A stretch of 38,182 nt of DNA, taken from contig JAFGSJ010000058.1 in the NCBI GenBank assembly GCA_016934675.1, forward strand, positions 1-38,182, in the 5' to 3' direction. A program made the translations under genes and the position numbers. The stretch is from a bacterium (GTDB lineage Bacteria > CSSED10-310 > JAFGSJ01). Under the pieces are notes generated by a model, which had not been told where the DNA came from, searched no databases, and saw only the letters and a list, made by a program, of their open reading frames with translations. This document shows positions 3,001 through 34,290 of this stretch, one piece after another (within the stretch, counting starts at the first letter, position 1; every line of letters starts with the position of its first letter).

Positions 3001-4462
3001 CATCGCCGATCTGGTTGAGACGGATGGTGTGCTGGTCGGTCAGTTCATCCAGGGCTCCGATCAGGAATATGTTTGTGAAACAAAGAATTATGAGATTCTC
3101 CTTCGGCTCTCGAGAGCCGCTGCCCGTCCAGTCGTGCAGACCCGAGGGCTCGAATGGCTGGCCCCTTTTCTGGCATCCTATCAACACCTTAACCTCGACA
3201 ATCCACAGCGGGAGAATCTGGAGCAATGCCTGGAAAAACTTGTCTGTTATCCGCTGCCAGCTTCTCTCTGGGAAACAGATATCCTGCCGGCCCGCCTGAA
3301 CGGGTATCGTCCGGAATGGCTTGATCTGCTGTTGAAGCAATCTGACCTCCGCTGGCTCGGCTCAGAAAAAGAACGTATCCTGTTCTGTTTCGAGAATGAA
3401 CTGGACCTCCTCTCAGCGGATGATGTCGATCTGCTCCACACTCTTTCATCCGAATCGGAACAGAATGGCGAAGCTGAGATTGTCACTTCCCCCACTGCCC
3501 GAGACCACGATAACCTCATTGAAACGTTGTTCCGTGATCCGTTGGCCCGTTACGATTTTTCGAGTCTGCTGCGCCTGTCAACATTATCACCCGCCGAACT
3601 CAACGAACAATTGTGGGCCGCAGTCTGGGCTGGAGCACTCACAAGCGATAGCTTCGCTTCCTTGCGCACAGCACTCACATGCCGATTTAAAATTCCAGAC
3701 ATTGTGGCGGGGCCGGAAATGCAGGCTACCCGGCGACGTGGTCACGGAACGCGCTTCGCCCGCTGGCGAGGTGCTCTGCCTACAACCGGGTCCTGGTTTA
3801 AACTCCCCTGCCAGACGTATAAGTACGATCCACTCGAACAGCAGGAAATAATCAAAGAACGCTGTAAAATTGTGCTCGATCGCTATGGTATCGTCTTTCG
3901 CGAATTACTCACCCGAGAAATGCCCTTGTTTAACTGGTCCGCCCTGGTCCGGACCCTTCGCCTGCTCGAATGGTCGGGCGAGGTGGTTACCGGTCACTTC
4001 TTCGACGGGATTCCCGGACTGCAATTCATGTCGCTTAAAGCTTTCCGCCTTTTTCAACGGCACGAGCACGAGTATGACCGGAAACTGTTCTGGTGCAATG
4101 CCCTCGATCCGATCTCCCTGTGCGGCACGGGGCTCTATGCCTTGAAACATCGGTTGCCTCAACGTAATAGACGTAACCATCTGGTTTATCGCGGTCCAGA
4201 CCTCGTTTTCATTTCGGAGAACATGGGCAAGAATCTGACTATCTCGGTTTTGCCTGATGATACTGAACTTATCCTGATCCTGGCTCCATTGCGGGCTATG
4301 CTCGAACGTTCGTTTCAACCCATCCGGAAAATCGTGGTCGAAACGATTAATGGTAGACCTGCCGCCCAGTCTCCCTATCTCGATATTTTCAGGACTGCTT
4401 TTGATCTATCAATCGATTTCAAGAAAATAATCCTGCATCAACATCGGGATCGTCTCACCTGA
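2..4462 (+). CDS. lhr: Lhr-type DEAD/DEAH-box ATP-dependent helicase, 5' truncated
   Basis: Large helicase-related (Lhr) superfamily 2 protein, an ATP-driven 3'-5' nucleic-acid translocase linked to repair and RNA metabolism. The readable frame is about 1485 residues and stays open to the left edge. The first GTG lies inside the Q-motif-like PTEVQ segment, so the true start is upstream. Visible motifs are the Walker A APTGSGKT near residue 25, DEIH (LDEIHALIGSKRG) near 145, SAT near 180, and the second RecA domain with ATNSLELGIDIG and the motif VI QRIGRAGH. The winged-helix region and the long C-terminal part follow, giving the length usual for full bacterial Lhr. It stops with TGA. Family is certain; the precise substrate is not known. 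Confidence 0.95.
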   Translation, partial: RVGPPTEVQEQSWAEIAEGRHVLLTAPTGSGKTMAAFLWSLNQFSTGRLPCGRTRVLYISPLKALNNDIQRNLIRPLQELSEYFKERGESFPAIRVQTRSGDTPESERRQMVRRPPEILITTPESLNLLLSSRNGRSMLETVATVILDEIHALIGSKRGVHLMSGVERLALSAGEFQRIALSATIKPIEAVVDFVAGYTLMGDQAAPHYRKREIAVVQTQASKQYALTIISPDRSEQGVIDQSIWSALVAQIMAIIERHRSTLIFTNSRRLCEKITNMINESVGELVAYAHHGSLSREVRFEVEQRLKRGELKAIVATNSLELGIDIGPLEQVVLVQSPNTISSAIQRIGRAGHQVGAVSSGTLFPTHAQDLLEATVLARAIVEQDIEPVRPVKNSLDVLSQVIISMLGVSDWDIDELYHVLRCCYSFHELDWSQYELVLEMLAGRYAQTRIRELRPKVTLDRLENRVRLKKGALFDLYLSGGTIPDRGYFKLRLEKDKTLLGELDEEFVWEAAIGQTFTLGTQNWQIVRMTPNEVFVHPAAADKLATPFWKADGFSRDYHYSERIGQFLEHMENKLGQGDPITELTDRYNLQTGPAQQLIDFLSSQREYTNAALPHRHHIVLEYVQTGPQQGPGNQLIIHTFWGSTLNQPYALALTAAWEQKFHHQPELYSTNDNIVLQLPHAISGEELLALVTCANLETLLRHKLESSGFFGARFRENAGRALLLTRTKFHERMPLWLTRLRSQKLLDAVRHFPDFPIVLETWRTCIWDEFDLVQLKQVLNELEIGSIAWSECHTFQLSPMARATAWRQTNYYMYLDDTPKNSGTSRLSSSLIQDIMTSPHLRQAFKNEIVSEFVAKRQRTFPGYLPDQADDVLDLVKERVMVSLDEWHVLEQGLLHSYPDQAGALIAQVQSKLEFVQSGAGKQIVVVAHEHADQVKILLEIPITAWSNQTTSSTPDTLGSPVLAATLLLEWLSFYGPLTVSEITCKTGLSPDLISRLIADLVETDGVLVGQFIQGSDQEYVCETKNYEILLRLSRAAARPVVQTRGLEWLAPFLASYQHLNLDNPQRENLEQCLEKLVCYPLPASLWETDILPARLNGYRPEWLDLLLKQSDLRWLGSEKERILFCFENELDLLSADDVDLLHTLSSESEQNGEAEIVTSPTARDHDNLIETLFRDPLARYDFSSLLRLSTLSPAELNEQLWAAVWAGALTSDSFASLRTALTCRFKIPDIVAGPEMQATRRRGHGTRFARWRGALPTTGSWFKLPCQTYKYDPLEQQEIIKERCKIVLDRYGIVFRELLTREMPLFNWSALVRTLRLLEWSGEVVTGHFFDGIPGLQFMSLKAFRLFQRHEHEYDRKLFWCNALDPISLCGTGLYALKHRLPQRNRRNHLVYRGPDLVFISENMGKNLTISVLPDDTELILILAPLRAMLERSFQPIRKIVVETINGRPAAQSPYLDIFRTAFDLSIDFKKIILHQHRDRLT

Positions 4463-31033: not shown

Positions 31034-33475
31034 GTGGAGACAGTTCCTCGAGAGCAGACCGCTGAATGCAGCCGTTGTGGAACACGGTACGTCCGGGGTG
31101 CGCTGCGCTGTCCCGGGTGTGGGCAAGTCGTGTCAGGTGCAGCGAATAGTGAGCCCAGGGTAGGAACGCGGATTCGTGATTATCTGGTCATCGAGAAGTT
31201 GGGTGAAGGGGGTATGGGCCGGACGTATTTGACGCGTCATACTCATTTGGGCAGTTATCGGGTGGTCAAGATCATGCATCCCTGGGTGTCTCAGCACCCT
31301 GATTTTCCGGTCCGGTTCAGGCGGGAAGCCCAATTACTGGCCAACCTGCATCATCCGGCCATCGTGACCCTACACGAGTTCAGTTATCTTGAAGACGGGA
31401 CCCCCTTTATGGTCATGGAATATTTAAAAGGAGAAACACTGGCCGAGTATCTTGTCGGACATGGTTCGTTATCACTGGTGACCATGGTCGATTTTGTTCG
31501 ACAACTTGCTCAGGGGTTGGATTTCGCGCATAAGTCCGGGATCATTCACCGGGACATATCGCCCGAGAACATCATCCTGGTGGAAGATGAGTCGGGTAGG
31601 CTTCAGGCCAAGCTGATTGATTTTGGTATTGCCAAGGTTTTCGAGGAACCGGCCCAACAGAATCGTAACGGTCCGAGTACGGTTGAGAAAGTGGAGACCA
31701 AGACCGGGATTTATGTGGGCAAGCCCGGTTATGGCAGTCCGGAGCAGTTCAGGCAATTACCGGGCCATCATGAGATTGACGGTCGGACCGATATATTTTC
31801 CATGGGCATAGTCATGTATGAAATGCTGACCGGGCGACAGTTATTTGCTCGGGAGAGTATCACGACCTACTTATTGTCCCTGATTATGTTTGCGGAGAAG
31901 GGGCAAGACACGGTCAGTTGGACCGGTGTGCCAGGACCTTACCAAGAGATTATCTGCAAGTGCATTGCCTACAAACCCGAGCAACGTTTTTTTGATTTTG
32001 CGTCATTACTCGAAGATCTCGATCAGGCGGCTGATAGGGTTACAGAGATGGTACACGGCGGTCTGGTCCCTGAAGTTTTGTCGGAACAAGCAGTTCGCCG
32101 ACATAAGAAGACTGGCTGGTTAATGTGGGCTTTGGTTTTTATTCTGGCCATGCTGGGTAGCTTTTATCTCAAGAAGGTTTTCTTTCGCGGACCGGAGCCA
32201 CAGCCGACAGGCGTGCCGCTTTCTGAACGGTCCGTGCTATCGCAGCGCGACACAGAGGCTGTCCGGACCGAACCGGGTCCAACACCGAGCCCGACGGACT
32301 TTGCCCTGCTTGATGAAATGGTCCGCTCGATGGAAGCGGCCTACCAGCGCAAACACTACACTATTCCTGAAGAGGGTAGTGCGTTCGCTTTGGCCCGCCA
32401 GATTATGGCGATTGATCCGGGAAATAGTGTAGTCCAGACCATATTGACAGGTATCGTCTCGTATTATCGGGATAATGGTTTAAGGTGCCTTGAAAGTGCC
32501 GATTTTAAAAACGCCCTGCTCTATTTCCAGCGGGCCGGGCAGATTTGGCCGACGGATGAGTGGTTAGCCTTGTTGATCACACATACGGAGGCTCTGCGAC
32601 GGCAATATGCCCATATTTCACTCGCTGGTCTTGATTTGGTCCTGGTCCCGACCGGTTCCTTCACTATGGGCTCCGCCCAAAACGATACACGGGCGTACTC
32701 CGACGAGCTGCCAAGGCACAAAGTCAATCTCAGTGCCTTTTACCTTTCGAGTAGTGAGGTCACCAATGGGCAATATTGTGAGTTCTGTGCCGCAACAGGT
32801 CGATCACGGCCTGCCATTCCGCTTGAATTTCAAGTCGGGCCTGATTATTTCGAACAGTATCGGAATTATCCGGTGGTGAATATCAGTTGGGAGGATGCCC
32901 GTAGTTTTGCTGCATATTATGGTGCCCGGCTGCCGACTGAGGCGGAATGGGAAAGGGCCTGTCGGTCCGATCGGGATTCACTGCTCTACCCCTGGGGTAA
33001 CTCGCCTCCAACGAACAAGCTGATCGGTAATCTTGCGGACAAGGATTTTCAACGATTAGCCATGTCCGACCAACTTGTATTTTCCGGCTATACGGACGGT
33101 TATATATTTACAGCGCCCGTCCGCTCGTTTATACCCAATGCGTTCGGACTGTACGATCTCGAGGGTAATGTCCGGGAATGGTGCGCGGATTATTACAGTG
33201 ACAATTATTATGAGCACAGCCCTTCGACCGATCCGAAGGGACCGGCCACAGGTCGGATGAGGGTGGTTCGGGGCGGTTCCTGGAGCAGTTCTCCGCAGTC
33301 GACTCGTTGCAGTTTTCGTCAAAAAGCCGCTCCGGATCAAGGTTCGATCCATTACGGTTTCCGCCTGGCCCGCGATTTTCAGGTTGATGGACCGCTTGTT
33401 CCGGCCCAACCCACGCCATCCTCTCCGGAACAATCCCCACCGGGTGACGAAGGTCTCCTGGCCGGACCGCGCTGA
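31034..33475 (+). CDS. zinc-ribbon Ser/Thr kinase fused to a formylglycine-generating-enzyme-like domain
   Basis: Protein of 813 residues from a GTG start behind GGGAGGG. A CxxC zinc ribbon (Cys12/15, Cys26/29) is followed by a PknB-like kinase with glycine loop GEGGMGRT (57-64), Lys79, HRDISPEN with Asp174 (Ser replaces the usual Lys, as in many bacterial kinases) and DFG at 196-198. A membrane helix (about 362-382) leads to a linker and an FGE-sulfatase domain (about 535-790), recognisable by LVLVPTGSFTMGS, RLPTEAEWERACR, LYDLEGNVREWC and RGGSW...HYGFRLARD. The RGGSW-to-RC segment keeps only the second of the two active-site Cys of true FGE. The domain is therefore probably a ligand-binding sensor and not a sulfatase activator. 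The DUF1573-type gene starts 14 nt later and is likely co-transcribed. Confidence 0.93.
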   Translation: METVPREQTAECSRCGTRYVRGALRCPGCGQVVSGAANSEPRVGTRIRDYLVIEKLGEGGMGRTYLTRHTHLGSYRVVKIMHPWVSQHPDFPVRFRREAQLLANLHHPAIVTLHEFSYLEDGTPFMVMEYLKGETLAEYLVGHGSLSLVTMVDFVRQLAQGLDFAHKSGIIHRDISPENIILVEDESGRLQAKLIDFGIAKVFEEPAQQNRNGPSTVEKVETKTGIYVGKPGYGSPEQFRQLPGHHEIDGRTDIFSMGIVMYEMLTGRQLFARESITTYLLSLIMFAEKGQDTVSWTGVPGPYQEIICKCIAYKPEQRFFDFASLLEDLDQAADRVTEMVHGGLVPEVLSEQAVRRHKKTGWLMWALVFILAMLGSFYLKKVFFRGPEPQPTGVPLSERSVLSQRDTEAVRTEPGPTPSPTDFALLDEMVRSMEAAYQRKHYTIPEEGSAFALARQIMAIDPGNSVVQTILTGIVSYYRDNGLRCLESADFKNALLYFQRAGQIWPTDEWLALLITHTEALRRQYAHISLAGLDLVLVPTGSFTMGSAQNDTRAYSDELPRHKVNLSAFYLSSSEVTNGQYCEFCAATGRSRPAIPLEFQVGPDYFEQYRNYPVVNISWEDARSFAAYYGARLPTEAEWERACRSDRDSLLYPWGNSPPTNKLIGNLADKDFQRLAMSDQLVFSGYTDGYIFTAPVRSFIPNAFGLYDLEGNVREWCADYYSDNYYEHSPSTDPKGPATGRMRVVRGGSWSSSPQSTRCSFRQKAAPDQGSIHYGFRLARDFQVDGPLVPAQPTPSSPEQSPPGDEGLLAGPR

Positions 33476-33489
33476 TCAAGGGATTGTCT

Positions 33490-34290
33490 ATGAAAAAAAG
33501 GCATCTGTTCTCTCGTCTCGATGCGGCCCTGATGGGCTTGTCCCTGGTCCTTTGTTCCGGACTGATTTTGGCCAGCCAGGCTGGGCCCATGTTTCTGTCT
33601 GCTTCCGGGGAGCATGGGGCCTTCCGATCCGATACTCAGGTTTCCGAGGACCAGTTTCCCCGGATCGTCTTTGAGCAAGCCGACCTGGTCTATGACCTGG
33701 GTAACCTCGATGCTTCAGAAAAGAAAAGTGCCAGGATCACCTTTAAAAATGTGGGACGGGCCGCATTACAAATTGTCGATGTTCAACCGGGTTGAGGCTG
33801 TACGGCTGTCCTGATCACCGAGGACACCATTCTCCCGGGCGGAGAAGGAGAAATCATCGCCACACTGACTGGAGACGTCAGGAACGGGCCGATGCACAAA
33901 CCCATAACCATTGTAACCAATGATCCGAATAATAAAGCTGTGGTTGTTTACCTGAAGGCTGAGGTCAAAATTCAGCTTGGCTTTGACCCACTCTCTTTGA
34001 ATCTCGGACGAAGAGAGTTCGGAAAGGTCGAGGTAACAGAGTATATCCGGGTCATTGGAGAAATTTTTCAGAAACATACCATAACCCGGGTCATCGCTCG
34101 GAATTCTTACATCAAGGTGGATCTGGTCCGCCCGGACCGCGAGAACCATGAGTACCGTTTGGCAGTGACCCTGCTCAAGACCGCACCCATCGGTAATTTG
34201 TATGGCAGCATCGAAGTCTGGACCGATGATCCGGCACATTCCAAAACCCTGGTGCATGTACAGGCACAGATCATAGCCGCTGTTCCTTAA
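33490..34290 (+). CDS. candidate selenoprotein: secreted DUF1573-type protein with in-frame TGA (Sec102)
   Basis: Reading from ATG 33490 (AAGGGA upstream) gives 101 codons, a TGA at 33793-33795, then 164 further open codons to TAA. Both halves are one protein: signal peptide (about 1-31), then a DUF1573/ASH-like beta domain with DLGNLDASEKKSARITFKNVG, ALQIVDVQPG, the TGA, GCTAV and VTNDPNNKAVVVYLKAEV, then a second similar domain with GFDPLSLNLGRREFGKVEVTEYIRV. Family members have CGCT where this has TGA-Gly-Cys-Thr, so the TGA replaces a conserved Cys. A SECIS-like hairpin follows. Read as Sec, the mature protein is periplasmic with a Sec-Gly-Cys motif. If the TGA is a true stop, this is a nonsense-interrupted gene. 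The kinase/FGE-like gene lies 14 nt upstream. Confidence 0.75.
33796..33828 (+). promoter_or_regulatory. candidate bacterial SECIS element
   Basis: Downstream of the TGA, TGTCCT (33807-33812) pairs perfectly with AGGACA (33821-33826) around an 8-nt loop GATCACCG. A further G-C pair (33805 with 33828) lies outside one mismatch. The stem begins 11 nt after the TGA and the loop 17 nt after it, and the loop starts with G. These features agree with the bacterial SECIS consensus: apical loop 16-37 nt from UGA with a G in the first two loop positions. The hairpin lies in coding sequence, as bacterial SECIS elements do. A six-pair stem could arise by chance. Confidence 0.55.

Follow-up and report, generated by a model that had tools for sequence, protein, structure and literature searches.

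Known selenoproteins with a DUF1573 domain

Proteins combining a DUF1573 domain with the motif UGC are tabulated as selenoproteins in both PMC9312934 and PMC13188914, and the family also figures in the list of PMC2398784 under the name OS_HP2 (pfam07610, motif UxC, two Sec sequences listed); for this family, a table of PMC9312934 gives credit to the 2007 paper on the Olavius algarvensis symbiont. In addition, NCBIfam holds a model for the family, NF041425 (OS_HP2_seleno). With respect to function, a DUF1573 gene is listed in the iron-responsive set of PMC10434189, the available part of which assigns no function to it. The lineage CSSED10-310, to which the DNA considered here belongs, is described in PMC8248873, the available part of which contains no word beginning with "selen", and a literature search for CSSED10-310 together with selenocysteine returned no paper; the use of selenocysteine (Sec) in this lineage may be unreported in the literature searched.

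The present analysis deals with a DUF1573 gene located near the end of a stretch of 38,182 nucleotides (contig JAFGSJ010000058.1 of assembly GCA_016934675.1), hereafter called the window. Its product shares with the OS_HP2/DUF1573 family the domain, the Sec-Gly-Cys site, which occupies the family position of NF041425, and the occurrence of Cys homologs elsewhere, but differs from it by a score of only 59.4 bits against NF041425, whose curated cut-off is 100, by its length (266 residues versus 379-452 for its paralogs) and by its place in a group of copies found, among the tree rows, only in this genome. All six copies of the genome score under the NF041425 cut-off, and 3 of the 10 other Sec members tested score above it. 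The Cys-type DUF1573 proteins also have the domain in common with the window protein, together with a CGC motif, but possess Cys in place of Sec, preceded usually by Ser, Thr or Asp instead of Gly. By sequence, the window protein is a divergent relative which would escape NCBI's model, and as this branch lies beyond the reach of the model, genes of this kind may have been annotated as truncated. A preliminary description of the DNA had presented the gene as a candidate new selenoprotein and had not recognized DUF1573 as an established selenoprotein family. The lists cited above and NF041425 contradict the latter statement, so that the strongly supported Sec codon stands while the novelty is reduced to that of a distant new member of a known family. 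What is added here is a branch below the NCBI cut-off, its occurrence in CSSED10-310, and a set of paralogs with Sec, Cys, Ser or Trp at the same position, in a functionally unassigned selenoprotein family which has members in several phyla and has expanded in a single genome belonging to a rare phylum.

The gene and its reading frame

Read from ATG 33490 to TAA 34290 on the forward strand, the frame contains a single in-frame TGA at codon 102, followed by 164 codons and the terminal TAA, and frame translation revealed no other in-frame stop within these limits (Table 1). The read-through product contains one PF07610 domain extending over residues 66-159 (66.7 bits, E 1.9e-18), well over the gathering score of 26.1 bits that defines membership of DUF1573, and residues 101-105 read Gly-Sec-Gly-Cys-Thr. 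Scored against the codon usage of the window genes, the two sides of the TGA reach 0.328 and 0.234 bits per codon; past the TGA, both remaining frames score negatively. When the whole window was scanned for frames that read through a TGA and have coding scores before and after it, 10 candidates were obtained, the other nine of which lie, by their coordinates, on the opposite strand of longer ORFs and look like shadows.

Table 1. Positions of the DUF1573 selenoprotein gene, its parts, and TGA-containing genes elsewhere in the same genome.
Feature	Position	Strand	Remarks
DUF1573 selenoprotein gene	33490..34290	+	266 residues, Sec at 102, stop TAA
In-frame TGA, very probably read as selenocysteine	33793..33795	+	first Cys position of the CGC motif (Pro-Gly-Sec-Gly-Cys-Thr)
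Likely ribosome-binding site AAGGG	ends 7 nt 5' of ATG	+	sequence reading
N-terminal hydrophobic helix, likely export signal or membrane anchor	33520..33564	+	residues 11-25; secondary structure of the model, low pLDDT; export inferred
DUF1573 domain, predicted Ig/ASH-like beta sandwich with the Sec site	33685..33966	+	profile match and model
Second predicted beta-sandwich domain	33979..34287	+	approximately residues 164-266; model; domain boundary is the analyst's reading
SECIS-like hairpin	33804..33828	+	stem GG-c-TGTCCT / AGGACACC, 8-nt apical loop GATCACCG, -11.3 to -11.5 kcal/mol
AhpC/TSA-superfamily TGA gene, window genome	L167 1501-1896
AhpC/TSA-superfamily TGA gene, window genome	L170 654-1028	-
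AhpC/TSA-superfamily TGA gene, window genome	L173 1501-1860

The TGA codon among relatives

Six DUF1573 matches occur in the window genome, three of which contain a TGA, each time precisely at the motif codon; in the remaining ones this codon is TGC (Cys), AGC (Ser) and TGG (Trp). Among the fetched loci, TGA was also found at the motif codon in 7 further genomes (G002, G004, G005, G006, G007, G008 and G046). A tRNA-Sec of at least 60 bits was detected in 6 of these 7 genomes, the exception (G005) being 60% complete, and in 3 of the 8 genomes whose fetched motif-bearing DUF1573 genes have only CGC, a comparison that took in 28 of 60 genomes. A larger set was assembled by a named scan with the 164 residues following the TGA as query, so that the motif codon could not bias the selection; it yielded 61 loci with TGA at the motif codon in 55 and Cys in 6 (L154 and L164 among the latter), a proportion which applies to the close subfamily picked by this query pattern. 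These loci belong to metagenome-assembled genomes, mainly from the Thermodesulfobacteriota, Myxococcota, Deltaproteobacteria and CSSED10-310, with a few in Pseudomonadota, Bacteroidetes, Gemmatimonadota and Krumholzibacteriota, and to a single isolate, Desulfacinum infernum. Wider samples are mixed rather than rich in Sec. Where the motif column is occupied, which is the case for 180 distinct places with the 61 loci included, 73 have TGA and 72 have Cys. Matches to NF041425 at E 1e-8 occur in 84 of 337 genomes, none passing its cut-off, and 25 of the 131 matches hold a TGA, which in at least one case (G144) is not at the motif codon. On the evidence of the window gene, its two TGA-bearing paralogs and the 55 named loci, the placement of TGA on this conserved codon is beyond chance.

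Residues G103 and C104 are invariant in 73 aligned rows. The residue preceding the Sec is Gly in 62 of 72 Sec genes versus 6 of 54 Cys genes (126 genes with the xGC motif), a difference that was not accepted as firm: just 2 phylogenetically independent pairs lie on supported branches, the Gly is absent from 5 of the 10 Sec genes of a later sample, and some Gly-bearing Cys genes have a Sec gene as their sister or as a paralog in the same genome. As a separate observation, the locus L045 (G046:C56) consists of a 695-residue frame whose C-terminal DUF1573 part carries Sec-Ala-Cys, not Sec-Gly-Cys.

Selenocysteine machinery and other selenoproteins

The window genome is a bin of 5.45 Mb in 169 contigs (96.44% complete, 5.71% contaminated), of which the window is contig C59. 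It contains one selC (tRNA-Sec) above the cut-off, with 78.4 bits and the anticodon TCA, as well as selA (547.4 bits), selB (395.7 bits) and selD (363.5 bits), all three over their curated cut-offs. All of the sel genes are located on contigs other than the window contig, so that in a bin with this contamination their origin from the same organism as the window is an assumption, which counts against the Sec reading. A second apparent selB with inner stops (G000:C13) was discarded as an ordinary EF-Tu, the match having run beyond the stop.

Moreover, three of the 8 AhpC/TSA matches of the genome contain one TGA each. The motifs of these AhpC/TSA-superfamily (peroxiredoxin-superfamily) genes read TFVU, GFIUPFC and TNTUGSC, and we take their TGA positions to be Sec sites of known families (TxxU, UxxC). 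Because these three TGA codons fall at such sites, the organism appears to use Sec in ordinary selenoproteins too, and probably possesses a sizeable selenoproteome.

Decoding of the TGA

Since selA, selB, selC and selD are all present, the homologs display TGA or Cys at the motif codon, and the genome has further canonical selenoprotein genes, the decoding of TGA 33793-33795 as selenocysteine at residue 102 is strongly supported and, in our judgment, very probable. The gene would encode an exported or membrane-anchored DUF1573 selenoprotein, into which SelB, tRNA-Sec and the hairpin located just past the UGA would insert Sec at residue 102, as the comparative evidence suggests. In this respect, the points put forward in the preliminary description were largely borne out: the open frame and the union of both halves into one DUF1573 protein agree with the PF07610 match, the TGA occupies the first Cys of the motif both here and in the relatives, and two of the checks that it had proposed, on the sel genes of the window's own genome and on the homologs at the motif codon, gave positive results.

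The three other ways of reading the codon have to be weighed against the same data. TGA is an ordinary stop at 6 of the 22 window gene ends checked, including those at 4462, 18213, 25917 and 33475 named in the preliminary description, and this would be compatible with a nonsense mutation, a pseudogene or a sequencing error leaving a protein that ends at residue 101. Such a truncation is nevertheless very improbable, as the codon falls at exactly the motif position in three paralogs and in the great majority of the named loci, as the gene is devoid of any other in-frame stop, and as the coding signal runs on past the TGA. The gene ends just mentioned count against a change of code or a suppressor tRNA by which UGA would be read as another amino acid; although the frame is open whichever residue the TGA encodes, the xGC relatives without TGA nearly always show Cys at this codon (54 of 58), with Trp in one paralog only, and all four Sec genes are present, so that this reading retains hardly any probability. 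It is also conceivable that the UGA acts as a switch, giving a 101-residue product without selenium and the long product with selenium. Some termination is to be expected at a Sec UGA, and the Cys paralog encoded near selD could step in during a selenium shortage, but the short product would be left without the Sec-Cys motif and without the greater part of the domain, and a regulatory role of this kind is considered improbable, if less so than the two preceding readings.

The hairpin downstream of the TGA

The published model of the bacterial SECIS element comprises an apical loop of 3-9 nt with a G in one of its first two places, a spacing of 16-37 nt and a minimum free energy of at most -7.5 kcal/mol, with GG or GU as the preferred loop start (PMC13188914). 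In the window, the stem TGTCCT/AGGACA begins 11 nt past the TGA and the loop GATCACCG begins with G, 17 nt past the TGA, so that the 8-nt loop, the spacing and the free energy of the hairpin all lie within these limits, the loop starting with GA versus the preferred GG or GU. The start, the spacing and the loop G given in the preliminary description are therefore correct, but the argument that they provide for Sec is weaker than had been supposed: under the full published rules, hairpins as strong were obtained from 17 of 250 synonymous versions and at 30 of 250 codons picked at random in the window genes, and the SECIS search that it had proposed, while placing the hairpin within the limits, also passes 73 of the 250 random codons. 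Similarly, the folding of this stretch is matched by 34 of 200 dinucleotide shuffles (z -1.05). With the place fixed narrowly, none of 60 synonymous versions, and none of 40 in a second run, is as strong, and the whole 45-nt stretch following the TGA compares with its synonymous versions at p 0.04. The hairpin taken alone is not clearly beyond chance, and its fit to the published model is weak evidence for Sec.

Across the family, the fold after the codon is stronger than in synonymous versions (p<0.05) for 24 of 65 TGA genes versus 4 of 20 others; compared as groups, the TGA genes show the stronger folding (Mann-Whitney p 0.005, 65 versus 20 genes, relatedness not corrected). With a stricter hairpin test (p<=0.05), the counts are only 14 of 69 TGA genes versus 2 of 20 others, duplicate loci included. 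No hairpin common to the family was found, the registers differing even among the three Sec paralogs of the genome. In a common register of ten pairs, 8 are kept in the window gene, 9 in the C154 Sec paralog, 7 in the Cys paralog and 5 in the third Sec paralog, a comparison which provides weak evidence.

Predicted fold and proposed working site

The AlphaFold2 model of the window protein (pLDDT 86.9, pTM 0.70) consists of a low-confidence N-terminal helix followed almost only by beta strands, with residue 102 in a turn between the strands 93-100 and 105-109. The top 20 Foldseek matches in the PDB are ciliary central-apparatus proteins, along with a functionally unassigned Porphyromonas protein at rank 9 and, at rank 20, the SPD-2 domain of CEP192. 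Over both domains the TM-scores stay low (0.31-0.36); further down the list, cadherin and titin Ig-type domains occur. From these strands and matches, the modelled fold is therefore Ig/ASH-like, made of two beta sandwiches, and not thioredoxin-like as in the thioredoxin-fold selenoproteins. No sequence match was found among PDB chains at E 1, nor among plasmids at 1e-5. The TlpA disulfide reductase family is presumably thioredoxin-like. The UGC-containing selenoproteins assigned to that family in Table 1 of PMC13188914 resemble the window protein by their Sec-Gly-Cys motif, but differ from it by this family label, the window protein being modelled as an Ig-like sandwich.

According to the model, Sec102-Gly-Cys104 would occupy the turn at a strand end of the first of the two sandwiches. 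Because of this position and of the invariant G103 and C104, residues 102 and 104 would act together as one site, their selenol/thiol pair being the probable working site of the protein. Cys-x-Cys pairs are able to act as dithiol/disulfide couples, and a redox-active selenenylsulfide/dithiol located outside the cytoplasm is the most likely role, with about an even chance of being correct. A site which binds a soft metal or sulfur/selenium species, instead of performing redox chemistry, is a less likely though still sizeable possibility: it would suit the Ig/ASH-like, not thioredoxin-like, fold, the retention of Cys104 whether residue 102 is Sec, Cys, Ser or Trp, and the location of a TusA-type gene and selD near the Cys paralog, but only two candidate ligands are evident and no metal gene was seen among the recurrent neighbours.

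Paralogs and gene neighbourhood

A tree from which the motif column was omitted unites five of the genome's six copies, namely the three Sec copies, the Cys copy and the Ser copy, in one group (SH-aLRT 97), within which the Sec copy of contig C154 and the Cys copy of contig C37 are sisters (support 92, 51% identity). The Trp copy stands elsewhere on a long branch, its placement being unsure. Both the Ser and the Trp copy retain the second motif Cys. Two tandem pairs occur, a Sec and a Trp copy on contig C125 (L011) and a Ser and a Sec copy on contig C154 (L010), and the Cys copy closes a run consisting of a TusA-type gene, selD, the D component of a 2-hydroxyglutaryl-CoA dehydratase and DUF1573 (L088 1773-6023).

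A joint reading of the six-paralog set, tentative and rather unlikely as a whole, would give the Cys copy near selD the role of a substitute, independent of selenium, for the Sec sister with which it shares 51% identity, would treat the Ser and Trp copies as inactive partners, and would view the protein itself as an exported selenol/thiol enzyme or chalcogen carrier built on an Ig-like fold. Were it true, the Ig-like fold would represent a new kind of scaffold for Sec chemistry. The Sec/Cys/Ser/Trp series offers a natural test of the role of Sec on a fold which is not thioredoxin-like.

The neighbourhoods were compared by clustering 635 ORFs from 76 stretches (75 loci and the window end), clusters present in at least 4 loci being considered. 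No shared partner gene was found in this clustering beyond what looks like local synteny in one phylum or order, the clusters present in at least 10 loci consisting of the DUF1573 genes themselves and of ORFs judged to be shadows, and no conserved gene among the recurrent neighbours points to any function. In four genomes, a distance of 2.4-4.5 kb separates selC from the closest DUF1573 gene of the Sec type (G002:C12, G004:C25, G006:C13 and G007:C117); this proximity was set aside as a functional hint, as it looks like conserved synteny within the phylum. In the window itself, positions 31034-33475 of the forward strand encode a Ser/Thr protein kinase fused to an FGE-sulfatase (SUMF1-like) domain, which ends 14 bases before the start of the DUF1573 gene.
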